NCBI GenBank assembly: GCA_015655015.1
Contig: JAATFV010000063.1
Location: 80,694 to 144,693, forward strand
Source: Chitinophagales bacterium
GTDB taxonomy: Bacteria > Bacteroidota > Bacteroidia > Chitinophagales > Chitinophagaceae
DNA: 64,000 bases
Direction of reading: 5' to 3'
Made by a program: the position numbers and the translations under genes. This document shows positions 869 to 61,280 of this stretch, piece after piece. The number at the start of each line of letters is the position of its first letter. Position 1 is the first letter of the stretch. A model generated the notes under the pieces. The model saw nothing but the letters and a program-made list of their open reading frames with translations, ran no database searches and was not told the DNA's origin.

Positions 869-884
869 TTCAATTGTTATGCCC
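869..884 (-). promoter_or_regulatory. Sigma-54-like promoter element for the outer-membrane barrel gene
   Basis: Read on the minus strand the site is GGGCATAACAATTGAA: GG, ten bases, then GA where the sigma-54 consensus has GC. It lies 44 bases upstream of the start codon at 825. Its GGCATAA half forms a perfect 7-bp inverted repeat with that of the next site (877-883 and 890-896), so the two divergent genes share one control region. Confidence 0.45.
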
Positions 885-888
885 AGTC

Positions 889-904
889 TGGCATAAAACT
901 CGCT
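889..904 (+). promoter_or_regulatory. Sigma-54-like promoter element for ku
   Basis: The site reads TGGCATAAAACTCGCT, with GG and GC separated by exactly ten bases as in sigma-54 -24/-12 promoters. A start of transcription about 12 bases after the GC (near 915) would leave a leader of about 25 bases before the ATG at 941. Confidence 0.5.
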
Positions 905-940
905 GTTATCTAAAGAAATAGTTAATAAAATAGTTAATAT

Positions 941-1717
941 ATGAGAGCAATATGGACAGGGGCTATCGGCTTTGGCCTGGTAAACATCCCCATAAAAATA
1001 TACAGCGCCACAGAAGGCAGCGAACTGGATCTCGATATGCTGGATAAAAAAGACCATTCCCATATCAAATTCAAAAGAGTGAATGAGAACACCGGTAAGG
1101 AGGTCGCCTGGGATAACATTGTAAAGGGCTACAAGCTGGATGACCGGTACATCGTATTGACCGATGAAGATTTTGAGAAGGCGATGCCGGAGAAGACAAA
1201 GATCATTGAGCTAACGGAGTTCGTCCGCGAGACGGAAATCGATGGGATGTATTATGATACGCCTTATTACCTGGAGCCTGAAAAATCGGGAACGAAAGCA
1301 TATGTATTGTTGCGGGACGCCCTTCGCAAGACCGGCAAGGCAGGCTTTGGCAGCTTTGTATTGAGGAATAAAGAAAATCTTTGCCTGATCAGGGCGTTGG
1401 AGGATGTCCTCGTCCTGAACAAGATCCGCTGGTCCCAGGAGATCCGGTCGACCGAAGATCTGAAGATACCTGCGGGAACGCCTAAGCCGGCCGAAATGAA
1501 AATGGCGATCGAGCTGATAAATAGCCTTACCGGGAAATTCGATATCTCCAGCTATAAGGATACTTATACAGATCAATTGCTGAAAGTGATAAAAGCGAAA
1601 GCGAAGGGCGGCAGGCAGGCCAAAACTTCTCCTTTACGAGTGGTGCACTCTCCGAATAAAGATCTGCTGTCGCAGCTGAAAGCGAGCTTGCAGGGGAGAA
1701 AGAAAAAGGCGTCTTGA
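941..1717 (+). CDS. ku: Ku, non-homologous end-joining DNA-end-binding protein
   Basis: A 258-residue bacterial Ku. It opens with the family signature RAIWTGAIGFGLVNIPIKIY and contains the conserved core YYLEPEKSGTKAYVLLRDALRKTGKAGFG (in outline: YYLEP, then KAY, then GK.GFG) around residues 107-135, followed by the Lys-rich C-terminal tail (KASLQGRKKKAS) that helps DNA binding and LigD recruitment. Bacterial Ku homodimers ring broken DNA ends and recruit LigD, whose gene is in this window at 49407. The genes are about 48 kb apart, not adjacent as in many genomes, but both have TGGCAT-type upstream elements. Length and motifs are normal. Confidence 0.97.
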   Translation: MRAIWTGAIGFGLVNIPIKIYSATEGSELDLDMLDKKDHSHIKFKRVNENTGKEVAWDNIVKGYKLDDRYIVLTDEDFEKAMPEKTKIIELTEFVRETEIDGMYYDTPYYLEPEKSGTKAYVLLRDALRKTGKAGFGSFVLRNKENLCLIRALEDVLVLNKIRWSQEIRSTEDLKIPAGTPKPAEMKMAIELINSLTGKFDISSYKDTYTDQLLKVIKAKAKGGRQAKTSPLRVVHSPNKDLLSQLKASLQGRKKKAS

Positions 1718-1749
1718 AAGTTGAGTTGGCCGTCACAGCTCTGCCGCTC

Positions 1750-2870: not shown

Positions 2871-3017
2871 ATGAGCGGTTTACTTTATCTGATAGCAGTC
2901 ATATTGATCATAGGTTGGATCTTAGGCGTGTTCGTATACAGCGTAGGCGGACTGATCCATGTATTGATCGTATTAGCGATCATCTCTCTGGTACTGGGTA
3001 TCATCAGGAGAGCATGA
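2871..3017 (+). CDS. Lmo0937-family small membrane protein
   Basis: A 48-residue, almost wholly hydrophobic protein: SGLLYLIAVILIIGWILGVF, then YSVGGLIHVLIVLAIISLVLG and a short basic end (IIRRA). This is the two-helix pattern of the Lmo0937 family of small membrane proteins, which are common among stress-induced genes in Bacteroidota. The ATG at 2871 is preferred because the family begins there and the longer upstream extension in the same frame is not membrane-like. A terminator follows at 3072. Function is unknown. Confidence 0.85.
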   Translation: MSGLLYLIAVILIIGWILGVFVYSVGGLIHVLIVLAIISLVLGIIRRA

Positions 3018-3207: not shown

Positions 3208-3807
3208 TTATTTCTTTCCTTTCCGTTCGCTCTTATCTCCTTCCCCATTCTCCGTTTCCAGCGCCTGCCAGTTGACATTGTTTTCCGCAATATCCGTAAG
3301 GAGCGAATCGGCTGCCTTTTCTTCCTTCAACGTCTCTTCCAGCAGAGTAGCCACTTCATTCAGGTGCATATTGCTGGCAAGCTGTACCAGGGTGCCATAA
3401 GTGGCGATCTCATAATGTTCCACCTTTTGGGCGGCTGCGATCAGCGCTACATCGCGGGTCAGGCTGCCGGCCTCTGTCTCTTCCGTCATCTCATCCGCCT
3501 CTTTGGTCAACCCATCCATGGCCTCACATTTTACAGCCTGGGCCTTTTTTCCCATCAATTCAAAGGCCTTTTCCAATCGGGTAACATGTTCTTCCGTCTG
3601 AGCCAAATGGTCGTCAAAGCAATCCTGTAACTCTTCCGTAGTGGCCGCTTTTTTCATTTTGGGCAAGGCCTTGGTCAGATGCTTCTCCGCCCAATAGATA
3701 TCCTTTAACATGTCTAAGAATAATTCCTGCATCAGCGGACCCTGATCCTGAGTTTTTCCAGAACTGGTTGCAGGAGCTTTCCTTGTCTTTTCAGCTGTCT
3801 TTTGCAT
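3208..3807 (-). CDS. DUF892 (YciE/YciF-type) ferritin-like stress protein
   Basis: A 199-residue protein. After a short Lys/Thr-rich start comes the DUF892 four-helix bundle: LFLDMLKDIYWAEKHLTKAL (about residues 29-48), DHLAQTEEHVTRLEKAF, DVALIAAAQKVEHYEIATYG and LLEETLKEEKAADSLL. The Glu and His residues (E of WAEK, EEHV, E/H of KVEHYE, EEKAAD) fit the di-metal centre of ferritin-like proteins. The family responds to osmotic and oxidative stress, but its biochemistry is poorly known. The C-terminus is charged and disordered. A paralogue lies at 61471. A TGGCAT-type element sits upstream at 3879. Confidence 0.92.
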   Translation of the reverse strand: MQKTAEKTRKAPATSSGKTQDQGPLMQELFLDMLKDIYWAEKHLTKALPKMKKAATTEELQDCFDDHLAQTEEHVTRLEKAFELMGKKAQAVKCEAMDGLTKEADEMTEETEAGSLTRDVALIAAAQKVEHYEIATYGTLVQLASNMHLNEVATLLEETLKEEKAADSLLTDIAENNVNWQALETENGEGDKSERKGKK

Positions 3808-3878: not shown

Positions 3879-3894
3879 AGAAAAACATATGCCA
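3879..3894 (-). promoter_or_regulatory. Sigma-54-like element upstream of the first DUF892 gene
   Basis: Minus-strand TGGCATATGTTTTTCT, 72 bases upstream of the start codon. It matches TGGCATA-NN-TTTTT, a pattern present at five genes in the window (also 11141, 56688, 56903 and 58760). Confidence 0.5.
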
Positions 3895-3965: not shown

Positions 3966-3981
3966 TGGCTTAAAGCTTGTA
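3966..3981 (+). promoter_or_regulatory. Sigma-54-like element upstream of the MscS gene
   Basis: TGGCTTAAAGCTTGTA: GG and GT ten bases apart with a TTG -12 core, 45 bases before the ATG at 4027. Confidence 0.45.
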
Positions 3982-4026: not shown

Positions 4027-5112
4027 ATGCCGGATCAATTTTTAAGTCAATTCGATCATTTCCCCGATTTTGTATGGGATGGCTTATTGGCAGGCGTGGC
4101 GATCGTCCTCGGCCTTCTCCTGAAGTGGGTGTTATCACTCGTGTTACGGAAAAAGCCAGCGGATGGCAAGCCTGCCTGGTCTGTCACCCGTTCTATCCTG
4201 TCCCGCCTCGGCAAGCCTTTTAGCTATTTCCTCCCCCTGCTGACGCTCAACTTTCTGCTTCCGCTGATGAAAGTAAGAGCCAGTGTTTACCCGGCCCTCA
4301 ATAAAACGGTGGAAATATTGCTGGCGGTCTCCTTTGCGAATGTATTGATCGGGTTGGTAAAGGTATTCGAGGACTATGTCTATCATTCTTTTGATATTAA
4401 TAAAGCCGACAATCTAAAAGAGCGGAAGATAAGGACGCAGCTGCAGTTCATCCGGAGGCTGGCTATCAGCGTGATCATTATCCTTACCGCCTGTGTTATC
4501 CTCCTCAGCTTTAACAATCTCCGGAAACTGGGGGCCGGCCTGCTTACCGGTGTGGGAGTAGGCGGTATCATTATCGGGTTTGCCGCCCAGAAATCCCTGG
4601 GCAACCTCCTGGCTGGCTTCCAGATAGCCTTTACGCAACCAATAAGGATCGATGACGTGCTGGTGGTGGAAGGGGAATGGGGCCGCGTAGAAGAGATCAC
4701 GCTTACTTATGTAGTCCTCAATATATGGGACCAGCGCAGGCTGATCCTGCCGATCAATTATTTTGTTGAAAAGCCTTTTCAGAACTGGACAAGGAATACG
4801 GCGGATATAATGGGAACCGTTTTTTTATACCTTGACTACACCGTCCCCCTGGATGCCCTACGTAAGGAGTTTACCAGGCTGCTCGAAATCAATCCCTTAT
4901 GGGACAAAAGAGTCAATGTCCTGCAGGTCACCAATACCAGCGAACGCACCATCGAGGTGCGGGCCCTGATGAGCGCCAGCAGTTCGGGGAATGCCTTTGA
5001 CCTGCGATGTGATATCCGGGAAGGATTGATAAAATATGTCCAGGTCCATTTTCCCGAAAGCTTCCCCGTGACCCGGGCTATCGTGGAAGGCGGACCGGTA
5101 AAGACGAATTAG
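4027..5112 (+). CDS. MscS-family mechanosensitive ion channel
   Basis: A 361-residue membrane protein with an N-terminal set of hydrophobic segments and the pore-lining helix TM3 around residues 171-190 (GAGLLTGVGVGGIIIGFAAQ), rich in Gly and Ala as in MscS. The beta domain follows (IRIDDVLVVEGEWGRVEEIT, then LPINYFVEKPFQNWTR). Such channels open under membrane tension and release solutes after osmotic downshock. The C-terminal domain is of usual size. It converges with the acidic-protein gene, overlapping it by four bases (5109-5112), and stands among other osmotic and desiccation stress genes. Confidence 0.94.
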   Translation: MPDQFLSQFDHFPDFVWDGLLAGVAIVLGLLLKWVLSLVLRKKPADGKPAWSVTRSILSRLGKPFSYFLPLLTLNFLLPLMKVRASVYPALNKTVEILLAVSFANVLIGLVKVFEDYVYHSFDINKADNLKERKIRTQLQFIRRLAISVIIILTACVILLSFNNLRKLGAGLLTGVGVGGIIIGFAAQKSLGNLLAGFQIAFTQPIRIDDVLVVEGEWGRVEEITLTYVVLNIWDQRRLILPINYFVEKPFQNWTRNTADIMGTVFLYLDYTVPLDALRKEFTRLLEINPLWDKRVNVLQVTNTSERTIEVRALMSASSSGNAFDLRCDIREGLIKYVQVHFPESFPVTRAIVEGGPVKTN

Positions 5113-5639: not shown

Positions 5640-5939
5640 TTATTGTGATGAATCCACCGCGCCCCCAGCCTTAGGAGAAGGACGGACCCCGGCCTGGGCC
5701 GGCTTGACCGTGTTGGCGGTATCATTGCCCGGGGGCTGCGCTACTTTGTAGGAGGTGTCCGTTCCTCCGGCTCCGCCGGTAACAGGCGGACGGGTATCGA
5801 CTGCTTGCTGATAAGCTTCCTTACGCGCCCCGTTCTGTATCCAGTGCACGACAAGGGGACTGAGAATAGCTACCAATACGCAGAGTAAAAACCAGTTCCG
5901 TTGGGGAAAGCTCAGTTCTTTGTTGTTTGTATTTTCCAT
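5640..5939 (-). CDS. Hypothetical membrane-anchored protein with Pro-rich tail
   Basis: A 99-residue protein starting at ENTNNKELSFPQRNWF. One membrane helix (WFLLCVLVAILSPLVVHWI, about residues 15-34) is followed by a hydrophilic Pro/Gly/Thr-rich tail without a known domain. An upstream in-frame ATG at 5963 is less likely, because the sigma-54-like site at 5973-5988 would place the transcript start at about 5962. It may be co-transcribed with the acidic gene downstream (63-base gap). Function unknown. Confidence 0.65.
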   Translation of the reverse strand: MENTNNKELSFPQRNWFLLCVLVAILSPLVVHWIQNGARKEAYQQAVDTRPPVTGGAGGTDTSYKVAQPPGNDTANTVKPAQAGVRPSPKAGGAVDSSQ

Positions 5940-5972
5940 GATCCTTTCAGTTTTATCACTCATCTGTGATTA

Positions 5973-5988
5973 TGCAATTAGGATGCCC
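5973..5988 (-). promoter_or_regulatory. Sigma-54-like promoter upstream of the membrane-anchored protein
   Basis: Minus-strand GGGCATCCTAATTGCA: GG-N10-GC and a full TTGCA -12 core. Among the sites of this window it is one of the closest to the sigma-54 consensus. Confidence 0.5.
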
Positions 5989-6065
5989 CGGAAAAATCAG
6001 CATTATGCCCCCCGAAAAATCAGCATTATGCCCCCGGAAGAATCAGCATTATGCCCCTGAATCAG
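5983..6065. repeat. Tandem repeat of about 23 bp, 3.6 copies
   Basis: Units at 5983-6004, 6005-6027 and 6028-6050 read ATGCCCC(C)(C)GGAAAAATCAGCATT with small changes, and a partial fourth unit runs to 6065. There are no spacers, so it is not a CRISPR. Each unit carries GGGGCAT on the minus strand, the same -24-like half as in the adjoining promoter, so the repeat may be a multiplied upstream control element. Confidence 0.8.
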
Positions 6066-11156: not shown

Positions 11157-11178
11157 GCATATGGTTTTAAATTTGAGC

Positions 11179-40884: not shown

Positions 40885-40888
40885 CCCT

Positions 40889-49335: not shown

Positions 49336-49345
49336 TCTTTTTAAG

Positions 49346-49406: not shown

Positions 49407-52244
49407 ATGCCCTTACAAGAATATAAAAAGAAGCGGTCTTTTACAAAGACCCCGGAACCTCAGGGCGGACGGCCTTCGGGAACGGCGCTGCAATTTGTCG
49501 TGCAGAAACATGCAGCATCCCACCTGCATTATGATTTCCGCCTGGAAATGGAAGGAGTCCTGAAAAGCTGGGCCGTTCCGAAAGGACCATCCATGAACCC
49601 GGCGGACAAGCGGCTGGCCATGCAGGTAGAGGATCATCCCTTTGGCTATAAGGATTTCGAAGGCATCATACCCGCCGGGAACTATGGGGCAGGGACCGTA
49701 ATGGTATGGGATGAAGGGACCTATGAACCGCTGGAAAAAACAAAAGGGACCAGGGCTGACCAGGACCGGGAACTACGGAAAGAATTGCAGGCCGGCTCCC
49801 TGAAATTCCGCCTGAACGGAAAAAAGCTCAAAGGAGAGTTTGCCCTGGTGAAGACCCACGGAATGGGCGAAAATTCCTGGCTGCTGATCAAACATAAAGA
49901 TCAATATGCTACAAATGCCGCCATCACCAATGAAGACAAATCGGTGTTATCCCGAAAAACACTGGAACAGATAACTAAGAATCCCCACGCTAAAGAATGG
50001 AAGAGCAACAGGCAGGACGGTGATGCCGGTGCTGCCGGAAAGACAAGCAAGAACAACGCAAAAACAAAAAAGAGCAGCGCAGAAACAAAAAAGAACAACG
50101 CAAAAAATAACCCAAAGACAAAAAATGAAGAAACTATAGAAAAGACAGCCAAAAAAGGAAAAGCGAAAGCAGACCTTGCCGCCCCTTCCGCCATCAAGGC
50201 GGGACGCAAAGCCCCGATGCCTAAAGACCTCGCCCCCATGCTGGCGACCCTGGTGGACACCCCTCCCGCAGAGGAAGGCTGGTCATACGAGGTGAAATGG
50301 GATGGATACCGGGCACTCGCCTATCTGAAAAAAAATTCCGTGGAGCTCCGCTCCCGGAATAATAAATCCTTTAATGAAAAATTCTACCCGGTCTATAACG
50401 CCCTGCAGGCTTGGGGCATCAACGCTATTCTCGACGGAGAGATCGTAGTGATCGATGAAAAGGGACAGTCCAGCTTCGGCGCCCTGCAAAACTGGCGCAG
50501 TGAAGCCGACGGACAGCTGATCTATTATCTGTTCGACCTCCTCTGGCTGGAAGGAAAAGACCTTATGGAACTTTCCCTGACAGAACGAAGAGAGCTGCTG
50601 AGATCCCTGGCGCCGGAAGAAGGGATCCTCCGGATCAGCGAGAACTTCCAGACCAGCGGAAAAGAGTTCTTCGCCGCTGCACAAAAAATGGGCCTGGAAG
50701 GCATCATAGCCAAAAAAGAGGACAGCCTGTATACTCCCGGCGCCCGCTCCCGGGAATGGCTGAAGATCAAAACGGCGAACAGACAGGAAGTGGTGATCGG
50801 CGGCTATACGCTTAACAAGGGTAGCAGCAAGTTATTCAGCTCCCTGCTGGTAGGCGTTTTTGAAAAGGGACACCTGCAATACACCGGCAAGATCGGTACA
50901 GGCTTCAACGATAAAATGCAAAAAGAGATGCTGCGGCAGTTCAAGCCCCTGGTACAGAAAAGATCCCCTTTCAGCTCCGTACCGGATATTAACAAGCCGT
51001 CCCGCTTCCGCCCCGACCCACCAACAGCAACGGCCGTATGGCTGAAGCCAAAATTATTGTGCGAAGTGTCCTTCCGGGAGATGACGGAAGATGGAGTCAT
51101 GCGGCATCCCTCTTTCGAAGGCATGCGGGAAGATAAGGATCCCAAAGAGGTAAGGCGGGAAAAGGCCTTGCCTGTGGAAGAGGTCCTGGAGGAGACCAGT
51201 CCGAAAATAAAAACCAAAAAAGGTGCAGTAAAAGTGAAAACAGCAAGCGTAACACCCATCGAAAAATCGATCCTCGTCCCCGCCATAACCGGGGACCGGA
51301 AGAGCTTACTCAACCCTTCCGACGAATCCCAGGTAAGATCCATCCAGGGACACGAACTCTCCTTTACCCATCTTAGCAAAGTCTTCTGGCCAAAAGAGAA
51401 ATTCACGAAAAGAGACCTCCTCAATTACTACTACCAGGTAGCGCCCTACATGCTGCCCTACCTCAAAGACAGGCCGCAATCACTGAACAGATACCCGAAC
51501 GGCATCCTGGGAAAAAGCTTCTACCAGAAGGACGTAAAAGGAAAAGTCCCGGACTGGATAGCCACCTTTCCCTACCACAGCGCGGAAGATGACCGGGATA
51601 AAGAATTCCTGGTTTGCACGGATGAGGCAAGCCTTCTCTACATGGCCGCATTAGGCTGTATAGAGATCAATCCCTGGAGCAGCCGGGTACAGGCCCCCGA
51701 CCAGCCTGACTGGTGTATCATCGACCTCGACCCGGATAAGAAGACTCCCTTTGACAAAGTGATCGAAGCTGCCCTGGTCACCCGGGATGTACTGCAAACA
51801 GCAGGAGTCACCTCCTTTTGCAAAACGTCCGGCTCTACCGGCCTGCATATCTATTTCCCGCTGGGAGCTAAATATACTTATGAGCATTCGAAAGAATTTG
51901 CCCGGCTGATCGTAACTATCGTTCAATCGGAAATCCCCTCCTATACCAGCCTCGAACGCACCGTCCGCGACCGGAAAGGAAAAATGTACCTGGATTTTTT
52001 ACAGAACCGCCCGCAGGCTACCATTGCCGCCCCCTATTCGGTCAGGCCCAAGCCGGGAGCTACGGTGTCCACCCCTCTACACTGGGAGGAAGTCAAAAAA
52101 GGATTGAAAATGCAGGATTTCACCTTACAGAATGTTCCCGCCAGACTAAAATCCATCGGAGATATTTTCAAGCCTGTACTGGGGAAGGGTATCCAGATGG
52201 AAAAGGCGCTGAAACTCCTGGAAGGCTTGAAAAAAAGCAGCTGA
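49407..52244 (+). CDS. ligD: Multifunctional DNA ligase D for non-homologous end joining
   Basis: A 945-residue protein in the order phosphoesterase, ligase, polymerase. The 3'-phosphoesterase domain (about 1-190) has QKHAASHLHYDFRLEMEGVL and AMQVEDHPFGYKDFEG. A Lys/Asn-rich linker spans about 205-270. The ATP-dependent ligase (about 275-590) has the nucleotidyl-transfer motif EVKWDGYRAL with the active Lys near 296, ILDGEIVV and GLEGIIAKKEDS. The primase-polymerase (about 645-940) has FTHLSKVFWPKEKFTKRDLL, and IIDLDPDKK with catalytic Asp near 770. Ku at 941 is its partner. The enzyme trims, fills and seals double-strand breaks. It is coupled to a KTSC gene two bases downstream. Confidence 0.98.
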   Translation: MPLQEYKKKRSFTKTPEPQGGRPSGTALQFVVQKHAASHLHYDFRLEMEGVLKSWAVPKGPSMNPADKRLAMQVEDHPFGYKDFEGIIPAGNYGAGTVMVWDEGTYEPLEKTKGTRADQDRELRKELQAGSLKFRLNGKKLKGEFALVKTHGMGENSWLLIKHKDQYATNAAITNEDKSVLSRKTLEQITKNPHAKEWKSNRQDGDAGAAGKTSKNNAKTKKSSAETKKNNAKNNPKTKNEETIEKTAKKGKAKADLAAPSAIKAGRKAPMPKDLAPMLATLVDTPPAEEGWSYEVKWDGYRALAYLKKNSVELRSRNNKSFNEKFYPVYNALQAWGINAILDGEIVVIDEKGQSSFGALQNWRSEADGQLIYYLFDLLWLEGKDLMELSLTERRELLRSLAPEEGILRISENFQTSGKEFFAAAQKMGLEGIIAKKEDSLYTPGARSREWLKIKTANRQEVVIGGYTLNKGSSKLFSSLLVGVFEKGHLQYTGKIGTGFNDKMQKEMLRQFKPLVQKRSPFSSVPDINKPSRFRPDPPTATAVWLKPKLLCEVSFREMTEDGVMRHPSFEGMREDKDPKEVRREKALPVEEVLEETSPKIKTKKGAVKVKTASVTPIEKSILVPAITGDRKSLLNPSDESQVRSIQGHELSFTHLSKVFWPKEKFTKRDLLNYYYQVAPYMLPYLKDRPQSLNRYPNGILGKSFYQKDVKGKVPDWIATFPYHSAEDDRDKEFLVCTDEASLLYMAALGCIEINPWSSRVQAPDQPDWCIIDLDPDKKTPFDKVIEAALVTRDVLQTAGVTSFCKTSGSTGLHIYFPLGAKYTYEHSKEFARLIVTIVQSEIPSYTSLERTVRDRKGKMYLDFLQNRPQATIAAPYSVRPKPGATVSTPLHWEEVKKGLKMQDFTLQNVPARLKSIGDIFKPVLGKGIQMEKALKLLEGLKKSS

Positions 52245-52473: not shown

Positions 52474-54168
52474 TCATGCCGTATACTTATTCCCGATGAA
52501 ATCCACGATATGTTTTAATGAAGCTCCCGGGTCTTTCATACCTTCCGCCTCTGCCCCCACCCTTGCCAATTCTTCATCATGAACAGTATCCCGGAACCAT
52601 TTCGTATAATCCTTCCGATGCAGATGGAACAGCCAGGTATCGGAGTCGATCCCTTCCGCGAGATGTTTAAAGAGCAGTAAATTATTTGCTTTCAGATGGA
52701 GCTTGTTCTGCGGACCCGTAAAAACAAAACTGTTGCCGCCCATATCGCCCTGCGCATATTTCTTTTTATGCCGTTGCTGCAACTGAAGGGGAAGGCGAAA
52801 TTTCGCTTTATAAGGCGGCCGGGTATCATCCCGCTCCCATATACAGATCTCATCCTCTGCCAGGGAAGGGATATTTGCCGGAACAGGTATCCCCAATCTC
52901 CCGCAAAATTGTTCAAAAGGATAAGAAGGGTTCTTCCCGATGGTAAGAAGCATACCGATCTTTGAAAGCATCGCAGGTCCAAGAGCGTGCGGAGAAGTAC
53001 TGATCAGGATGAAATTATTAAAGTCATCCGGCAGCCAATCCAATGAAACTTCCGGAGCCGTAGGCACCAGGTGATGGGCTTCATCCAGCAGCAGCCAGTG
53101 CGGATGACCGTAGCGGCGTCGCATGTCCAGCAGCGCCGGCATCAGCCGGACAAAAAAAGCCGGTCTGTCAGCCAAAGGGATGGACAGGGTGCAAATTACC
53201 AGGTTTTGTACCGGATCTTTCAGCAATTCTTTTATTTCTTCGATGGATGGCAGCGAAGTGCCACTCCCCAGCACGACCGAATCAGGCAGCTCCAGGTAGT
53301 CCCCTTCCGGGTCTACCAGACAGAATTGATACCCCTTGCTGACCAGGCTTTCGATAATTGATAGGGTGAAGGTAGTCTTTCCGCTGCCCGACACCCCTGA
53401 AAGCAGGATCCCGCTGCGATAGGGGCAGATGGCAAAGGCATGCCCCTCCTCTTCAGTACCCAGCTCCAGGTAATGCCGGGACAATCTCCCATTGAGGAAG
53501 GAAAGGTCATTTGCTATGAGCCCATCGATCAATTCATTTACCCCATTCCCATGCGCTGCATCCGTTACCCAGTCCGACACCGCTTTCAGGGCCGGAAGGG
53601 CGTTACTCACCGCCACGGAACATTCCGCCGCCTGCAACAGGGCGCTGTCATTTTCGGCATCGCCTACCGCAACAGTATTATGCAGGGACAGGTGCAATAC
53701 ACGAAGAAGGGCCTGGAGACCCGTCGCCTTATTGATCCCGGACGGCAATATCATGACCGCTCCCTTGTTGAAGATGACCTGCCGTTCGATACCGCAAGTC
53801 TTGATCGTATCCAGCACCGCTTGCTCATAAGGCTCCCACGTCGCTATGATCACTTTACCGACCGAGATGGGATGAACGCCTTTCTCCTGCAGGGCCCGTA
53901 CAAAGGCCAGGTCCGGCGCCGGCCCTAACATCGTCTCTTTCCCGGTAGCCGTCTCGTGAATAAGGGCGCCGTTCTCTGCGACGATATAATCGAAGATCTT
54001 ATAACCGGGAAAAACGACTACCAGGTCTTTCATCTCCCTGCCGGTAACCAGTATTCCCTTTCTCCCCGCACCCTGCAGCTGCTTCAGTTTTTCCATGACA
54101 GCTTCTGTCACCAGCCCCTGGTTGGCCAGGGTGCCATCATAATCCGTTGCTAATACCAGGTAACGCAT
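52474..54168 (-). CDS. Fusion of HAD-IIB phosphatase and HerA/DUF87-like ATPase
   Basis: A 564-residue protein. Residues 1-230 are a HAD phosphatase of the Cof/sucrose-phosphatase type: LATDYDGTLANQG (nucleophile Asp near 9), GILVTGREM, and HNTVAVGDAENDSALLQ. Residues 250-530 are a RecA-like ATPase of the HerA/DUF87 class: GILLSGVSGSGKTTFTLSII (Walker A) and HPHWLLLDEAHHLVP (Walker B). This pairing of a sugar-phosphatase-like enzyme with a DNA-translocase-like ATPase is unusual. It follows glgX by 84 bases and likely shares its operon, so a sugar-phosphate substrate is conceivable. Function unknown. Confidence 0.85.
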   Translation of the reverse strand: MRYLVLATDYDGTLANQGLVTEAVMEKLKQLQGAGRKGILVTGREMKDLVVVFPGYKIFDYIVAENGALIHETATGKETMLGPAPDLAFVRALQEKGVHPISVGKVIIATWEPYEQAVLDTIKTCGIERQVIFNKGAVMILPSGINKATGLQALLRVLHLSLHNTVAVGDAENDSALLQAAECSVAVSNALPALKAVSDWVTDAAHGNGVNELIDGLIANDLSFLNGRLSRHYLELGTEEEGHAFAICPYRSGILLSGVSGSGKTTFTLSIIESLVSKGYQFCLVDPEGDYLELPDSVVLGSGTSLPSIEEIKELLKDPVQNLVICTLSIPLADRPAFFVRLMPALLDMRRRYGHPHWLLLDEAHHLVPTAPEVSLDWLPDDFNNFILISTSPHALGPAMLSKIGMLLTIGKNPSYPFEQFCGRLGIPVPANIPSLAEDEICIWERDDTRPPYKAKFRLPLQLQQRHKKKYAQGDMGGNSFVFTGPQNKLHLKANNLLLFKHLAEGIDSDTWLFHLHRKDYTKWFRDTVHDEELARVGAEAEGMKDPGASLKHIVDFIGNKYTA

Positions 54169-54252: not shown

Positions 54253-56490
54253 CTATCCTTTGCGCGAGCATTGCAACAGAAGAATCGTGTGGTCTTCTAC
54301 CGTAATGGTTTCCCCGGCGTCATAACTTGCCTTTGTCTTTGGGGCGGCAGATAGGACCCTGGCGCCAGCTGAGATCGCGGCCTGGCCGCTTTCACCCTTT
54401 GTTGCGGCAGATACTGCCGGCGTTGCCAGTAAAGCAGGCTCAGGCGGGGTCACCTTTTCAGCAGGGCGCGAAAAGCCGGTCTCAATCACTTTTTTCCATT
54501 CCCTGCCGAATTTTTCTTCCGGAAGGGTAAAATCCACCGGCCCGTAGTGTGCATTGAAAATAATATAAAAGCTGTCGTCTACAAGAGGCTGATTGTTCTG
54601 ATCCACCGTATTCAGGCCTCTGCCATTCAGGAATATTCCCAGGGATTTGGCGAAATCCTTTTTCCAATGATCTTCCGACATTTCCATCCCCTCGGGAATG
54701 AACCAGGCTATGTCCGTCAGCCCCCTTTTTCGGACAGGCCTGCCTTTGAACCAGTGCTTGCGGCTGAATACAGGATGCTCCTTTCGAAACTGGATCAGCC
54801 GGGAAGTGAACGCTATGAGTTCCCGGTCAGCCTTTTCCCAATTGATCCAGGAGATCTCATTATCCTGGCAATAGGCATTGTTATTCCCTTTCTGTGTATG
54901 GCCGGCCTCATCTCCGGCCCGGAGCATAGGCACTCCCTGGGAAAGCAGCAGCGTGGCTAAAAAATTCCGTTTCTGGCGATTCCGGTACCAGTTGATGCTC
55001 TTATCATCTGTCGGCCCCTCCGCACCTGCATTGGAGGAACGGTTGTCATCCGCCCCATCCTTATTGTCTTCTCCATTCGCCTCGTTATGTTTTTCATTAT
55101 AAGACACCAGGTCATTGAGCGTGAAGCCGTCATGAGCGGTGATGAAATTAATGCTGGCCGTAGGGTTACGGTTGTCATTCTTATACAGATCAGAGCTGCC
55201 GGTAAATCGTTCGGCAAACTCCGCCAGCATGCTATCCGCTCCCCGCCAATAGTCCCGCATACAGTCCCGGTATTTGCCGTTCCATTCCGCCCAGCCCGGA
55301 GGGAACTGACCGATCTGGTAACCGCCCTCTCCTACGTCCCAGGGTTCGGCGATCAGCTTCACCTGGGAAATAACAGGGTCCTGGTAAATGATATTAAAGA
55401 AAGCGCCCAGCCGGTTGACATCGTGTAGTTCGCGCGCCAGGGAAGCAGCCAGGTCGAACCGGAAACCATCCACATGCATTTCCTGCACCCAGTACCGGAG
55501 ACTGTCCATGATCATCATGAGCACACTCGGCAACCGGGTATTCAGCGTATTACCCGTACCGGTATAATCGAAGTAAAATCGCTTATCTTCCGCCAGCCGG
55601 TAGTATTCCACATTATCGATCCCCTTATAGGCAAGGGTGGGGCCCTTTTCGTTACCCTCCGCCGTATGATTATAAACCACATCGAGAAATACCTCGATCC
55701 CGGCCTTATGCAGCTCTTTCACCATCGTCTTGAATTCACGGACCTGGCCGCCAACGTCTTCGCCGCTATAGAAGCGTATTTCCGGCGCAAAGAACCCGAT
55801 GGTATTATACCCCCAATAGTTAGTAAGCCCCTTGTCCTGTAAGTGCCGGTCGCTGATAGACTGGTGAACGGGCATCAGCTCGATGGCCGTTATACCCAGT
55901 TTCTTCAAGTGATCAATAACAGCAGGATGGGCCAGGGCGGCATAGGTGCCTTTTATTTCCTCCGGGATACCCGGAAAAAGTTTCGTGAACCCTTTTACAT
56001 GAGCTTCATAAATGATCGTATTATGATAGGCTATCTTCGGCGCCTTGTCATTTTCCCAGTCGAAATGATGATCGATGACAGCCGATTTCGGCGCCGCTGC
56101 TGCATCATCCGTCTCGTCGAAGCTGAGATCATCATCCCCTATTTTATAGCCATACAGCGAATCCTGCCACTCCACGATACTGCAGACGGCTTTGGAATAA
56201 GGATCGAGCAGCAGTTTGTTCGGATTGAAACGGTGGCCGTTTGGAGGTTCATAAGGGCCATACACCCGGTAACCGTATAACTGACCCGGGGAGAGATCCG
56301 GAACATAACCATGCCATACATCATGAGACCGTTCGCTGAATTTGATACGGGTAAACTCTTTCTCTCCTTTCGCTGCGTGAAACAAACATAACTCAACGCC
56401 TGTTGCATTATGGGAATAAAGGGCGAAGTTGACGCCTTTACCGTCCCAAAAGGCTCCCAGCGGATAGGGATTGCCTGGATAGATAGTCAT
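54253..56490 (-). CDS. glgX: Glycogen debranching enzyme GlgX-type (GH13)
   Basis: A 745-residue enzyme that cleaves alpha-1,6 branches of glycogen. An N-terminal CBM48 (NPYPLGAFWDGKGVNFALYS, residues 6-25) precedes the GH13 barrel with DVVYNHTAEG, GFRFDLAASL (nucleophile Asp), KLIAEPWDVGEGGYQIGQF (acid/base Glu) and NFITAHDGFTLNDLV. Near residues 685-730 an Ala/Pro-rich insertion (PEPALLATPAVSAATKGESG and on) interrupts the C-terminal beta domain, which is odd for the family. With the GH15 enzyme at 59344 it could turn glycogen into free sugars or protective trehalose under stress. It lies in a transcription unit with a small lipoprotein and the HAD/ATPase fusion. Confidence 0.95.
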   Translation of the reverse strand: MTIYPGNPYPLGAFWDGKGVNFALYSHNATGVELCLFHAAKGEKEFTRIKFSERSHDVWHGYVPDLSPGQLYGYRVYGPYEPPNGHRFNPNKLLLDPYSKAVCSIVEWQDSLYGYKIGDDDLSFDETDDAAAAPKSAVIDHHFDWENDKAPKIAYHNTIIYEAHVKGFTKLFPGIPEEIKGTYAALAHPAVIDHLKKLGITAIELMPVHQSISDRHLQDKGLTNYWGYNTIGFFAPEIRFYSGEDVGGQVREFKTMVKELHKAGIEVFLDVVYNHTAEGNEKGPTLAYKGIDNVEYYRLAEDKRFYFDYTGTGNTLNTRLPSVLMMIMDSLRYWVQEMHVDGFRFDLAASLARELHDVNRLGAFFNIIYQDPVISQVKLIAEPWDVGEGGYQIGQFPPGWAEWNGKYRDCMRDYWRGADSMLAEFAERFTGSSDLYKNDNRNPTASINFITAHDGFTLNDLVSYNEKHNEANGEDNKDGADDNRSSNAGAEGPTDDKSINWYRNRQKRNFLATLLLSQGVPMLRAGDEAGHTQKGNNNAYCQDNEISWINWEKADRELIAFTSRLIQFRKEHPVFSRKHWFKGRPVRKRGLTDIAWFIPEGMEMSEDHWKKDFAKSLGIFLNGRGLNTVDQNNQPLVDDSFYIIFNAHYGPVDFTLPEEKFGREWKKVIETGFSRPAEKVTPPEPALLATPAVSAATKGESGQAAISAGARVLSAAPKTKASYDAGETITVEDHTILLLQCSRKG

Positions 56491-56687: not shown

Positions 56688-56703
56688 TGAAAAAATTATG
56701 CCA
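56688..56703 (-). promoter_or_regulatory. TGGCATAATTTTTT element driving the small lipoprotein and glgX
   Basis: Minus-strand TGGCATAATTTTTTCA. The 14-base core TGGCATAATTTTTT is identical at 56903 (plus) and 58760 (minus). As a sigma-54-like site it has TC in place of GC at -12. Confidence 0.55.
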
Positions 56704-56902: not shown

Positions 56903-56918
56903 TGGCATAATTTTTTCG
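56903..56918 (+). promoter_or_regulatory. TGGCATAATTTTTT element upstream of the KGG gene
   Basis: TGGCATAATTTTTTCG, 64 bases before the ATG at 56982; inverted copy of the site at 56688. Confidence 0.55.
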
Positions 56919-56981: not shown

Positions 56982-57866
56982 ATGAGTACGAGAAATTCAG
57001 GCAGACGTGGATTTGCGTCGATGGAACCCGAGGAACGACGCCGTATTGCTCAGCGTGGAGGCCAGGCCTCACATGGCGGACAGGGACATTATGAAAATGA
57101 CTATGAAGAGGATTATGACGATGAGGAAGGAGAAGATGAATATGGAGATGGTAATCATCCGTCTTCCCGCTATCATGATTACGAGGACGAGGGCGAAGAC
57201 GATGAAGATTATGATGAGGAGGATGAAGACGAGGATTATCAGCAGCCTTATTCCCGATATGAAGAGGATGAGGACGATGACTACGATAATAACCGGCAAC
57301 GCAGGGGCAGAGACAATGAATACGAATCTTCAGGGAGGGGAAGATCTTCTGACCGTGGACAATCCTCGGAAGGGAATCATCAGGGCGGCGGCCGCGGATT
57401 TGCTTCCATGGATCGCGACCGGGTAAGACGGATCGCCAGTGAAGGAGGGCGTGCCCGCCATGACAGCCGGGGAAGAAGCCATGACAATGGTGGAAATGGC
57501 CGTTCCGGCGGCAACCGCTCGGGAGATTCCGACAGAAGACGGTCTTCCTCTTCAGAAAGAGATCAGCATTCCTCCTCCGAAAGAGGCGGCAGCTCTTCTT
57601 CCGGGAGAGGCGGTAGTTCTTCTTCCGAAAGAGGGCGTTCTTCCCAGTCATCCGGCAGGGGACATTCATCCAGGTCATCCTCCGGCAGGGGACGGTCATC
57701 CGGTAATTCTTCCGGCGACAGCCATTCCAGTTCTTCCTCCCGGGGTCATTCCGGTAATTCCGGTCAGCAACGTAATGCAAGCGGACAATTCACCAGCCGG
57801 TCCGGACGGTCTGGTTATGGCAGCCGTTCCAATTCCAGCAGCGGCCGCAGCTCCCGCAGCAGATAA
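56982..57866 (+). CDS. Disordered stress protein with two KGG motifs, acidic block and Arg/Gly/Ser-rich tail
   Basis: A 294-residue low-complexity protein. Two copies of the KGG (Con-10/GsiB-type) stress motif lie at about residues 7-32 (RRGFASMEPEERRRIAQRGG) and 136-161 (GRGFASMDRDRVRRIASEGG). Between them is an acidic block (about 38-110) with runs of Asp, Glu and Tyr. The last 130 residues are Ser/Arg/Gly-rich (GRGGSSSSERGRSSQSSGRG) with a QFTSRSG element. KGG proteins are linked to desiccation and general stress. The alternation of acidic and Arg/Gly blocks would favour self-association into condensates or binding to nucleic acids; this is inference. Other frames here are shadows of the repeats. 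Confidence 0.85.
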   Translation: MSTRNSGRRGFASMEPEERRRIAQRGGQASHGGQGHYENDYEEDYDDEEGEDEYGDGNHPSSRYHDYEDEGEDDEDYDEEDEDEDYQQPYSRYEEDEDDDYDNNRQRRGRDNEYESSGRGRSSDRGQSSEGNHQGGGRGFASMDRDRVRRIASEGGRARHDSRGRSHDNGGNGRSGGNRSGDSDRRRSSSSERDQHSSSERGGSSSSGRGGSSSSERGRSSQSSGRGHSSRSSSGRGRSSGNSSGDSHSSSSSRGHSGNSGQQRNASGQFTSRSGRSGYGSRSNSSSGRSSRSR

Positions 57867-57892: not shown

Positions 57893-57930
57893 TAAGAAAT
57901 AGAGTCCCGGCGGGCTCTATTTCTTATTTT
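57893..57930. terminator. Bidirectional terminator between the KGG and DUF481 genes
   Basis: Arms TAAGAAATAGAG (57893-57904) and CTCTATTTCTTA (57915-57926) form a perfect 12-bp stem with a ten-base loop, followed by T-rich sequence. The two genes converge here. Confidence 0.75.
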
Positions 57931-58748
57931 TATTTATTGATGGTCAGTCCAAAATTTAACAGGGTATTCTCACTTCGCGTCCGGGTGAACCTGTTATAAG
58001 TGTAGGCAATCGTAAAATTCAGCCATTTATACAGTTTGACCGAAGCCGAGGCATTGAATTTAAAGATGTAATCATTCCAGCGTGAAAGAGAATTCTGGAG
58101 GAAGGCGGTGCCATCCAGCGAATACATATCCCGGATGACCCAATGCGTAAAGACCCGGAAAGAATTCCTCACTGCCTGGTATCGGTCCCTTTGATAAATA
58201 TTGCCATTGGGCCCTCCATACAGGCTATCATACAGATCTCCCTTTTCATAGAGAAGGCCATCGCTGATATTTATGAATGTCTTTTTCTTATCGAGCACGT
58301 TGTATCCACCCCCCAATCCGGTCTGCAGCTGATGGTTGATCAATAAGGAAACACTCGTGTTATAAGTAGCCAGTCCCCAGTAATAAAAATGCGGCATGGT
58401 TCCGTACAGGTTGAAATCCAGCGTTGTCGAGACATCGTTATTGGTGAGTATATGAGACTGCTTGCCATAGATCCAGCTGCTATTGAGATTGAGCGTGGAA
58501 TTTTTTTTGGACACGCTGGCCTTAAAAGCATTGTTTAGAACATAGGATTGCAGGGAATTGGTAGTATTAATAGTGCCCGTAGCTGCATAATTCAGATGAT
58601 AGCTGATAGTGTCGTCCCTGTGTGTGGAATCGGAATTCTTCGCTTTCGGAGGGACGGTATCCTTTACCGGCGGGCTTCCCGGGTCTCCATCCTGGCAGAA
58701 AACATGAAACGGAATAAGCAACAATAAGATCGGGATGATCAATTTCAT
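57930..58748 (-). CDS. DUF481 outer-membrane barrel protein
   Basis: About 272 residues. A signal peptide (KLIIPILLLLIPFHVFCQ) and a short Pro/Asp-rich linker precede a DUF481 (YdiY-like) beta barrel: LNYAATGTINTTNSLQSYVL, STLNLNSSWIYGKQSHILTN, and the end YTYNRFTRTRSENTLLNFGL with alternating residues. The family is induced by acid or osmotic stress in some bacteria. The first ATG of the frame is at 58763, but it lies within a TGGCAT-type element (58760-58775). I therefore prefer 58748, though this leaves almost no leader. Confidence 0.82.
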   Translation of the reverse strand: MKLIIPILLLLIPFHVFCQDGDPGSPPVKDTVPPKAKNSDSTHRDDTISYHLNYAATGTINTTNSLQSYVLNNAFKASVSKKNSTLNLNSSWIYGKQSHILTNNDVSTTLDFNLYGTMPHFYYWGLATYNTSVSLLINHQLQTGLGGGYNVLDKKKTFINISDGLLYEKGDLYDSLYGGPNGNIYQRDRYQAVRNSFRVFTHWVIRDMYSLDGTAFLQNSLSRWNDYIFKFNASASVKLYKWLNFTIAYTYNRFTRTRSENTLLNFGLTINK

Positions 58749-58759
58749 GGAAGGTGTCT

Positions 58760-58775
58760 TCAAAAAATTATGCCA
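58760..58775 (-). promoter_or_regulatory. TGGCATAATTTTTT element at the DUF481 gene
   Basis: Minus-strand TGGCATAATTTTTTGA, the third exact copy of the 14-base core. It sits closer to the start codon than elsewhere. Confidence 0.45.
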
Positions 58776-58824: not shown

Positions 58825-58840
58825 TGGCATTAGCCTTGCA
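58825..58840 (+). promoter_or_regulatory. Near-consensus sigma-54 promoter of the DUF3175 gene
   Basis: TGGCATTAGCCTTGCA has TGGCAT at -24, exactly five bases, then TTGCA at -12 (GG-N10-GC). It is the best sigma-54 match in the window. The transcript would start near 58851, leaving a 63-base leader before the ATG at 58914. Confidence 0.7.
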
Positions 58841-58913
58841 GGGGAGCATATAGTATCTGACGACACCATATGGTTCAAATCATCTATTCAATTAAAATAT
58901 TAAAAATAAAACT

Positions 58914-59357
58914 ATGACGACAGCAAAAAATAGTTCTTCCGCTAAAAGGAACCCAAGGAAGACCGCCGCAGCAAAAAGCAGGAATAAAAAGGCTGCTGCG
59001 AAAGGTAAGAAGACGCCGGGCAAGCGGAAATGGTCCGCCGCTGTAACCGGGCACAGCGACGCGCTGGACCTTAAAAAAGGAGTCTTCACCTCCGACGATC
59101 CCCAAAAGATAGCCCGGTCCCTGGAAAAGTCAGCGGAAGAGAGCCATCGGAAAAAAGGAAGCTCCCGCCAGTCGGCCGCATCCATGCTGAACTTTTACAT
59201 CAACCGGGCAGGTAAAAATCTTCCAGCCTCGAAAAAGAAGACCCTGAACAAGGCAAAGGAAGAGTTAAAAGAAATATCTTCTAAAAAAGAGAAAACTGAT
59301 AAAAAGAAATCCGCTAACGAAAAATCCGCCAGGCCAAAAAAAACTAAAAAAGCCTGA
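58914..59357 (+). CDS. DUF3175 protein with basic flanks
   Basis: A 147-residue protein. The DUF3175 core at about 38-112 reads RKWSAAVTGHSDALDLKKGV, FTSDDPQKIARSLEKSAEES and SAASMLNFYINRAGKNLPAS. Lys/Ala-rich tails on both sides suggest DNA or RNA contact. DUF3175 genes often accompany LigD, Ku and other stress genes in soil bacteria, and the function is unknown. The gene converges with GH15 and overlaps it by 14 bases. Confidence 0.93.
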   Translation: MTTAKNSSSAKRNPRKTAAAKSRNKKAAAKGKKTPGKRKWSAAVTGHSDALDLKKGVFTSDDPQKIARSLEKSAEESHRKKGSSRQSAASMLNFYINRAGKNLPASKKKTLNKAKEELKEISSKKEKTDKKKSANEKSARPKKTKKA

Positions 59358-61239
59358 GACCATCGGAATCAACATTCTTATTTCTGTTATCATCCAATTG
59401 TTTGTTGAGGTTATAGGCAGCGCTGATAAGCCCCAGGTGTGTAAAAGCCTGGGGAAAATTGCCCAGGTGCTGGCCTTCAAAACCCAATTGCTCGGAATAA
59501 AGTCCCAGGTGATTGGCATATCCCAGCATCTTTTCAAAGTAAAACCGGGATTTATCCAATTGCCCCGAACGGGACAAACATTCCACGTACCAGAAAGTAC
59601 ACATGGAAAAAGTACCTTCCCTGCTTACGATACCATCGGTATGCGTATCGATCAGACCATCGGGCGCCGCCAGTTCCGGCCTGTAACGATAGACCAGGGA
59701 ATCGGTGACCAGCTCCTCTTCAATCCTTTTTAAAGTGGACATCCAGCGGGGATCTTTGGGACTGATAAAGCGGACAAGAGGCATTAACAAGGCGGATGCA
59801 TCTACGGTAGAGGAACCGGGGAACTGCATAAACGCCCCTTTCTCCTCATCCCAAAAGTCCGTGAAGATGCTGTCATAGATCTTATCCCGTTCCGTCTTCC
59901 AGTTGCCATTCCGGGGAAAAGAGCGGGTTTCCGCTATCTTCATCGCCCTGTCCAGGGCCACCCAGCAGGAAAGACGGGAATAAAGGAAATCTTTTCTGCC
60001 TCCTCGTACCTCCCATATTCCATCATCCGGCTGATTCCAGTTATTGCTCAGCCATTCAATTTGTTTTTCCAGGTCTTTCCAGAAATCGTAGGAAATGGGT
60101 TCTACATGCTTGTTATACAAAAAAACCGAATCCATTAGTTCTCCATAAATATCCAGTTGAAGCTGCCCGTAGGCATCATTGCCGATCCGGACCGGCGAAG
60201 ACTGACAATACCCTTCAAAATTATCCAGGGTATACTCCTTCAGCTGGCGCTCGCCATTGATCGAATACATGATCCCCAACCTTTCCTGTCCCTTGATGTC
60301 CCGGCAGGCCTTCTCCACCCAGTTCATAAAAGCTCCTGCTTCTTTCGTATATCCAAGGCGTATAAAAGAATAAACCGTAAAGGAAGCATCCCGTATCCAG
60401 GTATAACGATAGTCCCAGTTACGCTGTCCGCCGATGCTCTCCGGAAGACCGAACGTAGGAGCCGCTATAATAGACCCATACCTGGCCGAAGTGAGTAATT
60501 TCAGCACCAGGGCCGACCGGTGAACGGTCTCCATCCATCTTCCTTTATAAATGGACCGGGAGACCCAGTCTTTCCAGTAGTTCACCGTCCGGAAGATGAT
60601 TTGTTTTATAAAACCTGGAAAATCGTCCTGTCCGGCCGTCTCATTCGCAGCATCTTCCAGGAGAAAGTCAACAGTCTGACCGGCGTTGAGCGTGAATTCC
60701 GCCATGACATCCCTGTCATTGATCTGTAAAGGCACACTGCTCTTTAATCGTAATATCAGGGCGTTTTCTCCTTCCTGCTTGAAAAGTATCTCATTAGGAC
60801 CCAGCTGCTCCAGGATATGGCCACTTTTTCCATAGTTAAACCGGGGACAGCATTGCAGCTTGTATTTCACCTCTCCCCGCACGGAGGTAAGCCGGCGGAC
60901 CAGCTTCTTTCCATCCTGTGCATCAGGGGACACCGGCATCAGATCCATTATTTCCCCCACCCCCTCCGAAGAAAGAAAACGGGTAAGCAATACATTGGTA
61001 TCCGGCAGATAAAGCTGTTTGGTCTTCATCTTCCTGAACTCCGGGTTTATGGAAAAGAAACCACCTTTCTTCTCGTCCAAAAGAGAGGAAAATATACTGG
61101 GGGAATCGAATTGAGGAAAACACATAAAATCAATGGAACCATTGAGACCCACGAGGGCTACCGTATTCAGGTCGCCGATAATACCATAATTTTCAATTGG
61201 TTGATAACTCACCGGAACAGTTTTTGTGTGCAGTAGCAA
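59344..61239 (-). CDS. GH15-family glucoamylase/trehalase-like enzyme
   Basis: A 631-residue cytoplasmic protein. The N-terminal domain starts YQPIENYGIIGDLNTVALVG and NGSIDFMCFPQFDSPSIFSS. The (alpha/alpha)6 barrel has LPESIGGQRNWDYRYTWIRD (about residue 268), WEVRGGRKDFLYSRLSCWVA (catalytic Glu) and EGTFSMCTFWYVECLSRSGQ. Members hydrolyse alpha-glucosides; some bacterial ones are trehalases. Overall length matches these. In a stress context with GlgX it may free glucose from glycogen or adjust trehalose level. A TGGCGCG-type element lies upstream. Confidence 0.94.
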   Translation of the reverse strand: MLLHTKTVPVSYQPIENYGIIGDLNTVALVGLNGSIDFMCFPQFDSPSIFSSLLDEKKGGFFSINPEFRKMKTKQLYLPDTNVLLTRFLSSEGVGEIMDLMPVSPDAQDGKKLVRRLTSVRGEVKYKLQCCPRFNYGKSGHILEQLGPNEILFKQEGENALILRLKSSVPLQINDRDVMAEFTLNAGQTVDFLLEDAANETAGQDDFPGFIKQIIFRTVNYWKDWVSRSIYKGRWMETVHRSALVLKLLTSARYGSIIAAPTFGLPESIGGQRNWDYRYTWIRDASFTVYSFIRLGYTKEAGAFMNWVEKACRDIKGQERLGIMYSINGERQLKEYTLDNFEGYCQSSPVRIGNDAYGQLQLDIYGELMDSVFLYNKHVEPISYDFWKDLEKQIEWLSNNWNQPDDGIWEVRGGRKDFLYSRLSCWVALDRAMKIAETRSFPRNGNWKTERDKIYDSIFTDFWDEEKGAFMQFPGSSTVDASALLMPLVRFISPKDPRWMSTLKRIEEELVTDSLVYRYRPELAAPDGLIDTHTDGIVSREGTFSMCTFWYVECLSRSGQLDKSRFYFEKMLGYANHLGLYSEQLGFEGQHLGNFPQAFTHLGLISAAYNLNKQLDDNRNKNVDSDGLRLF

Positions 61240-61264
61240 AAACTATTCCTGCCCTTCTTTCTCC

Positions 61265-61280
61265 GGAAAAAATCGCGCCA
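61265..61280 (-). promoter_or_regulatory. Sigma-54-like element upstream of the GH15 gene
   Basis: Minus-strand TGGCGCGATTTTTTCC: GG ten bases before TC, T-tract as in the other members. The start codon lies 26 bases downstream. Confidence 0.45.

Follow-up and report, generated by a model that had tools for sequence, protein, structure and literature searches.

The DNA analysed here, referred to as the window, is a stretch of 64,000 nucleotides from a Chitinophagaceae genome (Chitinophagales bacterium, GCA_015655015.1; positions 80,694 to 144,693 of contig JAATFV010000063.1, here C140), in which the end-joining genes ku and ligD and a series of predicted stress, envelope and storage-sugar genes are preceded by TGGCAT-type elements resembling the -24/-12 promoters of sigma-54. 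The window starts at C140:80694, and its positions 1-24 (+) hold the 3' end of a second sigma-54 gene, rpoN2 (C140:79293-80717, 474 amino acids); 916 further bases follow before ku. A preliminary description of this DNA had listed 19 such sites. All of their sequences are present, one coordinate was wrong (37780 instead of 37790), and we confirmed that 11 sites have an exact TGGCAT, that five carry TGGCATA-NN-TTTTT and that a GC at -12 occurs in four of the 19. Measured against the sigma-54 promoter, the -24 sequence TGGCA[CT] is present, exactly as TGGCAT in 11/19 sites, while the -12 TTGC, with its GC ten bases after the GG, is found in 4/19 and is mostly replaced by TTT followed by A, C or G. 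Because the textbook GC at -12 is mostly missing, we term the element sigma-54-like.

The beginning of the window could be compared with relatives. Element GGGCATAACAATTGAA (869-884, -) precedes an outer membrane protein beta-barrel gene (154-825, -; PF13568), a predicted regulon member, and recurs as NGGCA[CT][AG]ACAATTGA in all five relatives' rows printed. The ku gene (941-1717, +; PF02735) is preceded by TGGCATAAAACTCGCT (889-904, +), with counterparts recognised by eye in loci L241, L242, L244, L245 and L251. Next lies brkB, encoding a BrkB-family membrane protein (1750-2655, -; PF03631; start inferred at 2655), with element TGGCATGGTCTTATCA (2689-2704, -), and divergently from it the gene of a DUF5670 small protein (2871-3017, +; PF18919; start inferred) with element TGGCAAGCATTTTTCA (2811-2826, +); between the two elements we located a candidate upstream activating sequence (UAS) dyad, TGTAGAGTTTCTTCCCCA (2744-2761). 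In footprints against Puia and Flavitalea relatives, judged by eye over 11 rows of which several are short, the DUF5670 element is kept in eight as TGGCAAGCATTTTTC, a dyad of the same type likewise in eight, and the brkB element in five (TGGCATGGTCTT in L243, L245, L247 and L248; TGGCATGGTATT in L249). The gene of a DUF892 (YciF-like) protein (3208-3807, -; PF05974) follows element TGGCATATGTTTTTCT (3879-3894, -), the type of which is also found before DUF892 genes in L093, L094 and L225; no such element was seen in the footprint rows of the near relative L248.

Further into the window, TGGCATATCTTTTTGA (11141-11156, +) belongs to a DUF72 gene (ORF 11140-11973, true start inferred near 11179), and 40 bp before its -24 lies TGTAGATTAAATTCCCCG (11083-11100), which matches the UAS dyad at 11/12 positions. 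Two more such near-matches of 11/12, TGGGGTGTTGATTCTACA (45365-45382) and TGTAGAAAAAGCCCTACA (45450-45467), lie before element TGGCATAGCATTTGAA (45310-45325, -) of a DUF5723-OmpA gene (43061-45277). Towards the right end are TGGCATAATTTTTTCA (56688-56703, -) of an isoamylase-type gene (54253-56490), TGGCATAATTTTTTCG (56903-56918, +) of a KGG stress-repeat gene (56982-57866), TGGCATAATTTTTTGA (58760-58775, -) of a DUF481 gene (57930-58763, true start likely further in) and TGGCATTAGCCTTGCA (58825-58840, +) of a DUF3175 gene (58914-59357), which is the sole perfect TGGCAYN5TTGCW in the window. Support is intermediate for TGGCATTTCTTTTGTC (49320-49335, +) of ligD (49407-52244, +; ligase, phosphoesterase and polymerase domains), for TGGCATTAAATTTCTT (37780-37795, +), about 210 bp before ORF 38005 (DUF748), and for TAGCATGCCGTTTGCA (48200-48215, +) before a polyketide-cyclase-like gene (48237-48905). 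The weak elements at 3966-3981 (+) before an MscS-type channel gene (4027-5112), GGGCATCCTAATTGCA (5973-5988, -) before ORF 5640-5963 and TGGCGCGATTTTTTCC (61265-61280, -) before a GH15 gene (59344-61239) have no independent support. Over the 19 sites, 11 are well supported, three are intermediate (37780, 48200, 49320) and five are unsupported (3966, 5973, 47532, 47541, 61265). We also noted, just upstream of the 5973 element on the minus strand (5989-6038), two GGGGGCATAATGCTGATTTTTC-like units with -24-like GGGCAT words, and a short tandem repeat of GTCAGTTACTTTTAG (49345-49384) between the 49320 element and ligD.

The preliminary description had argued that TGGCAT occurs beyond chance expectation, and this holds for the extended element at gene starts and not for the bare hexamer. 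Over the whole window TGGCAT occurs 46 times against 42.06 expected from shuffles (sd 6.76), TGGCAYN5TTGCW with up to two mismatches 62 times against 54.96 expected, and genome-wide the canonical TGGCAYN5TTGCW is as frequent as its reversed control (9 each); overall enrichment of TGGCAT or of the canonical consensus was thereby ruled out as a signal by the shuffle and reversed-control counts. The window's intergenic DNA (6.49 kb) holds 11 matches to [TG]GGCA[TC]N5TT[TG], a pattern modelled on the window sites themselves, and its coding DNA holds two; a 400-kb sample of this genome's other contigs has four matches in 32.6 kb of intergenic DNA and 19 in coding sequence (p = 2e-6 versus the window). 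The genome scan that had been proposed gave 16 matches to TGGCAT-N3-TTTTT in 8.11 Mb (10 for the reversed pattern), six of which fall on the 144.7-kb contig C140, that is on 1.8% of the genome (p = 2e-7), five of them at gene starts in the window. A chance clustering in A+T-rich intergenic DNA, which would agree with the lack of enrichment of TGGCAT itself, is scarcely credible given this concentration of 6/16 matches and the flat counts of four permuted patterns in the same DNA. A smaller regulon, limited to about the 11 best sites of the window, with those at 3966, 5973, 47532, 47541 and 61265, perhaps also 37780, 48200 and 49320, as chance matches, is in our judgement probable and compatible with a sigma-54 regulon: the two-mismatch count (62 versus about 55) favours it, as does the lack of independent support for the doubtful sites, although the syntenic loci of relatives cover only the first kilobases of the window.

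The element recurs in relatives, as the proposed alignment across related species brought out, both near rpoN2 and before ku. In 20 relatives, intergenic TGGCA[TC]N3-4TTTT had 17 matches in the 51.7 kb around rpoN2 and a single one in 42.3 kb of control stretches from the same genomes (p = 3e-4), while four permuted patterns occurred 0-2 times near rpoN2 and 0-4 times in the control, again in intergenic DNA. In 20 stretches from genomes lacking RpoN2 which bear the NtrC-type activator described below, the same pattern occurred 14 times in 49.3 kb of intergenic DNA, the comparator here being the 1 in 42.3 kb from the other genomes' controls and not same-genome controls; the permuted patterns stayed at 0-4 intergenic matches there as well. 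Together with the coding counts, the control stretches speak against a motif that is equally frequent inside genes or elsewhere, which had been named as a refutation. Without any preset pattern, GGCA-N5-TTTT ranked first among the 1013 gapped words that occurred in 10 or more of the 557 foreground upstream regions, a set that takes in the window, with 27/557 foreground versus 1/420 background regions. In both sets of stretches (islands), near rpoN2 and around the unlinked activators, T is the commonest base at positions 11-13 from TGG, which is the -24/-12 geometry. This and the sequences before ku bear on another view, in which the element is no sigma-54 promoter and acts as an operator or as a variant of the primary promoter of Bacteroidota (-33 TTTG, -7 TAnnTTTG). 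Such a view draws on the five window sites that read TGGCATAnnTTTTT, inside which TAnnTTTT can be seen, and on the mostly missing GC at -12; yet among the 35 ku elements listed position 6 is either T or C, and position 7 can be any base, so that in a comparison confined to the -7 box GGCA is conserved in relatives and TA is not, and this view would leave unexplained why the element is linked to rpoN2 and to a GAFTGA activator. We consider it improbable.

Upstream of ku itself we surveyed 78 loci, comprising 44 in the 43 RpoN2 genomes with Ku and 34 taken from 47 Ku genomes without RpoN2; one upstream region has only 9 nt (G166) and two genomes are 69-76% complete (G144, G148). The pattern [TGA]GGCA..TT starts 33-66 nt ahead of the predicted ku start in 22/44 loci of RpoN2 genomes and in 14/34 of the others, with 10 matches in the rest of the approximately 400 nt per locus, and a stricter pattern is matched in 16/44 and 12/34, respectively. 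Thirty of the 35 listed elements lie 35-44 nt before ku, in many genera, and at the -12 the ku elements of relatives have TTT and then A, C or G. An element that marks RpoN2 genomes only was ruled out by these ku elements of RpoN2-less genomes and by the genome-wide counts of TGGCATNNNTTTTT. Since the element is not tied to RpoN2, the general sigma-54 protein, RpoN1, may read it too.

The preliminary description would have fallen with the absence of rpoN; two full sigma-54 genes are present, besides a short weak match, and one of the two lies close to ku. The full gene on contig C170 is of the general type (RpoN1), and its product shares 34% identity with RpoN2. RpoN2 has all three sigma-54 domains (AID, PF00309, 4.2e-8; CBD, PF04963, 9.8e-35; DBD, PF04552, 2.1e-48) and an RpoN box, ARRTVAKYRE, that includes ARRTVAKYR. 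Across the family, RpoN2 (40-100% identity to protein P0001) is present in 51/195 genomes and RpoN1-type genes in nearly all 195, the general type being well separated at 34-37% identity to P0001 among the matches listed. Named relatives with RpoN2 include members of Puia, Flavitalea, Flavisolibacter, Niastella, Segetibacter, Longitalea, Paraflavitalea and Taibaiella, as well as Ohtaekwangia (Cytophagales); three of the genomes (G092, G097, G156) have two RpoN2-type genes each (at least 40% identity to P0001). For the neighbourhoods we used 80 named loci with up to 10 kb on either side (62 exceed 19 kb in length), in which 78 rpoN2 genes were located; A[..]TVAKYR is matched in the RpoN2 of 54/78 and not in the other 24. 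The genes within these 80 loci include brkB in 37, ku in 23, DUF892 in nine and ligD in seven, and ku is the immediate next gene after rpoN2 in three. In L243, L246 and L247 ku follows rpoN2 directly and is co-directional with it, so that the DNA upstream of ku is the rpoN2 3' end.

An enhancer-binding activator, the gene to look for according to the preliminary description, was found and co-occurs with ku. For the gene after rpoN2, it is the best match in 66 of the 78 cases. Pfam analysis of three loci (L102, L105, L092) gave a receiver, an AAA+ and a Fis helix-turn-helix (HTH) domain for this activator and showed PAS histidine kinases, a hybrid receiver-PAS kinase and a divergent CHASE3 kinase. 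In the genome of the window the orthologue is L010 (C34:1239-2648), with 50-55% identity to all 18 rpoN2-linked activators compared, while the next two listed among the ten full activators of this genome reach at most about 40% each; L008 on C140 (window position -72676), considered as the rpoN2-linked activator, was dropped, L010 being the orthologue among all ten. It has the GAFTGA motif, the Sigma54_activat AAA+ domain and a Fis-type HTH (Pfam layout from orthologue L102), and it adjoins an ORF resembling a lone receiver domain (27% identity to the activator's own receiver) and an ORF 40% identical to the hybrid kinase. G[AS]FTGA is present in all 38 orthologues examined (18 linked, 20 unlinked), and the HTH helix DRKTLYNK in 18/18 rpoN2-linked and 20/20 other orthologues and in the own copy, compared with none of the other nine activators of this genome. 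Orthologues occur in 105/195 genomes, and Ku in 85/105 genomes with the activator versus 5/90 without; at genome sizes of at least 4.5 Mb the figures are 56/65 versus 1/15, and in smaller genomes 29/40 versus 4/75. The cut-off (best E at or below about 1e-115) does not fall in a wide gap and scores G031, G192 and G157 (41-44% identity) as lacking the activator; if they are counted as bearing it, the table reads 87/108 versus 3/87. As a side observation, TGGCAAGATGTTTCG at L159:2750 (-), roughly 100 bp before this genome's copy of the activator gene, may point to self-control of the activator.

That the regulon is sigma-54 dependent and yet read by RpoN1, with RpoN2 having another or a redundant role and the specificity coming from the activator alone, is possible but less likely than not. 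RpoN1-type genes are nearly ubiquitous, and the activator, Ku and the element are retained in genomes that lack RpoN2. On the other hand, RpoN2 occurs almost only with the activator (50/51 RpoN2 genomes) and in most loci adjoins it, and it lies within 10 kb of ku and of brkB in the proportions given above. In addition, the T-run of the ku element is followed by A in 17/22 loci of RpoN2 genomes versus 4/13 of the others (p = 0.012; G144 is left out and would add one A to the RpoN2-less group), and by A in 18/24 versus 13/29 island sites (p = 0.049), a hint that RpoN2 might prefer TTTA and a shifted -12; the strong sites of the window itself, with TTTC and TTTG, do not follow this trend. At each site the choice between the two sigma-54 proteins may fall on either RpoN2 or RpoN1.

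A second motif, the dyad TGTAGA-N6-TCTACA, is a candidate enhancer. Both TGTAGA and TCTACA were also raised in the upstream comparison without preset pattern. When exact arms were combined with spacers of 0-20 in the rpoN2 flanks, all five intergenic cases had a spacer of 6, and the controls had none. With up to two mismatches the dyad occurs 27 and 12 times in intergenic DNA of the two island sets versus 1 and 2 times in the controls, while spacers of 5 and 7 gave 1-3 and 0-1 matches; across these spacers and the permuted arms the counts were 0-4. In two genera (L098 and L092) the dyad starts 50-51 bp before the ku element. A widened form, TGKRGA-N6-TCYMCA, is found in intergenic DNA 17 times in rpoN2 flanks, twice in the other islands and six times in L241-L252, with 0 and 1 in controls, but it was widened after the footprints had been seen, which makes the counts in the window and in L241-L252 partly circular; an element lies within 250 bp downstream of 5/6 such dyads in Puia-like loci. 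Genome-wide, the own genome holds 11 widened dyads versus 3 for the reversed control. As a discriminator over the 195 genomes the exact dyad was rejected as weak (60 versus 19); among the 60 in genomes with the activator, a hand count places at least 13 no further than 5 kb from rpoN2 or the activator. A perfect palindrome, TGGGGAATATATTCCCCA (L371, G000:C173:14448-14465), was observed upstream of an RsbRD_N-STAS gene at a distance of 90 bp; TGGCAAAATTGTTCA follows the palindrome after 14 bp, and the arrangement possibly indicates a link to a stressosome-like sensor.

We read the TGGCAT-type elements before ku, ligD and nearby stress genes as sigma-54 promoters that depend on an enhancer and have a degenerate -12; RpoN2 and the dedicated NtrC-type activator encoded on C34 are predicted to act on them, and we put the probability of this reading, drawn from sequence comparison, at roughly three in four. 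As a prediction, the single regulon under sigma-54 or a related factor with a relaxed -12 that had been put forward thus stands, backed by the position of the elements, their recurrence, the two rpoN genes and the activator. In such a regulon a kinase encoded beside the activator would sense a stress and phosphorylate the activator, which would then bind TGTAGA-N6-TCTACA-like dyads upstream; RpoN2 (or RpoN1) would bind the -24/-12 element, and the activator ATPase would open the promoter, leading to a joint rise of ku, ligD, brkB, DUF892, DUF5670, OmpA-like and storage-sugar genes. The gene families suggest a role in desiccation or osmotic protection.

Several observations weigh against this reading. 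The GC at -12 is missing from 15/19 window sites, and the own activator on C34 is unlinked to rpoN2. Half or more of the ku loci surveyed are without the element, the window's own ku element is matched by neither ku-upstream pattern, RpoN2-less genomes carry the same element before ku, and the genome-wide counts of TGGCATNNNTTTTT, compared by eye, are not higher in RpoN2 genomes than in others. Moreover, the Fisher tests ignore kinship among the genomes. With regard to the dyad, matches of 11-12/12 occur in only three promoter regions of the window, the strongest elements (56688, 56903 and 58760) have no dyad above 8/12, and 5/9 of the intergenic near-dyads in the window (at least 10/12) are not near an element. 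Copies with up to two mismatches in coding DNA number 25 and 8 in the island sets and 6 and 5 in the controls, which means that the dyad is somewhat raised in coding DNA of rpoN2 flanks too (25 versus 6). The exact dyad is only modestly commoner with the activator, with 60 in 105 genomes versus 19 in 90 (reversed control 23 and 12; sums by hand, and activator-bearing genomes tend to be larger). Furthermore, the widened dyad has an element within 250 bp downstream in only 4/17 cases in rpoN2 flanks and 0/2 in other islands, and because most of the rpoN2-flank dyads (13/17) lie away from an element our confidence is slightly reduced.

Two further features of the window stand apart from the regulon. 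At 39221-42988 an AAA-like/PDDEXK_9 ATPase-nuclease is encoded beside an HATPase_c_3 protein, a stretch of which weakly resembles HSDR_N; the two may form a defence pair. At 52474-54168 a HAD-type hydrolase is fused with an AAA/DUF87-like ATPase domain.

More broadly, and tentatively, since we hold it somewhat less likely to be true than false, soil Bacteroidota might run their general stress response on a dedicated RpoN2, a PAS-kinase relay and the DRKTLYNK activator, with an own promoter (TGGCAY-N4-5-TTT) and enhancer (TGTAGA-N6-TCTACA), insulated from RpoN1 and coupling end joining to envelope and desiccation protection in the role of sigma-B, RpoS or EcfG. If true, a regulon for DNA repair and stress in Bacteroidota would have passed to a sigma-54 paralogue that has an activator of its own and a relaxed -12; how this phylum controls end joining would become directly testable, and the promoter and enhancer together would provide a code for finding regulon members in many genera.

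In the open-licence literature, outside of which most subscription papers lie, we found no joint treatment of nonhomologous end joining, rpoN and ligD, none of Chitinophagaceae together with sigma54, and none of a general stress response with sigma factor and EcfG in Bacteroidetes. End joining is under general stress sigma factors in other bacteria, namely EcfG/RpoE2 in rhizobia, RpoS in pseudomonads and sigma-G in Bacillus. The predicted regulon resembles these systems in grouping ku and ligD with envelope, storage-sugar and other stress genes, and differs in that sigma-54 and an activator ATPase would take the place of a sigma-70-family factor. Control by RtcR is sigma-54 dependent. The likeness to the RNA-repair operon of RtcR (PMC7790460) is that of a nucleic-acid repair operon under a sigma-54-type activator, whereas there it concerns RNA repair, a single operon and a CARF-type sensor. 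Specialised RpoN paralogues are present in Rhodobacter sphaeroides and Bradyrhizobium japonicum, where a second rpoN likewise stands beside the general one; here, in contrast, an activator and kinases of its own come after the paralogue, which lies near ku and brkB and belongs to Bacteroidota, not Alphaproteobacteria. Promoters of RpoN paralogues in Rhodobacter and Bradyrhizobium are reported to differ at -11 or -12 (PMC3162934; PMC12316311), and the main text of the latter paper contains neither COG1273 nor 'end-joining' nor 'Sphingobacteri'. With sigma-54 (RpoN) and its NtrC-family activators in general, the system shares the three sigma-54 domains, the RpoN box, an activator composed of receiver, AAA+ domain with GAFTGA and Fis HTH, the -24 TGGCA[CT] and candidate activator-binding dyads upstream of some elements, and it differs in a -12 that is mostly TTT with A, C or G, not TTGC, and in its predicted targets, end joining and stress genes.

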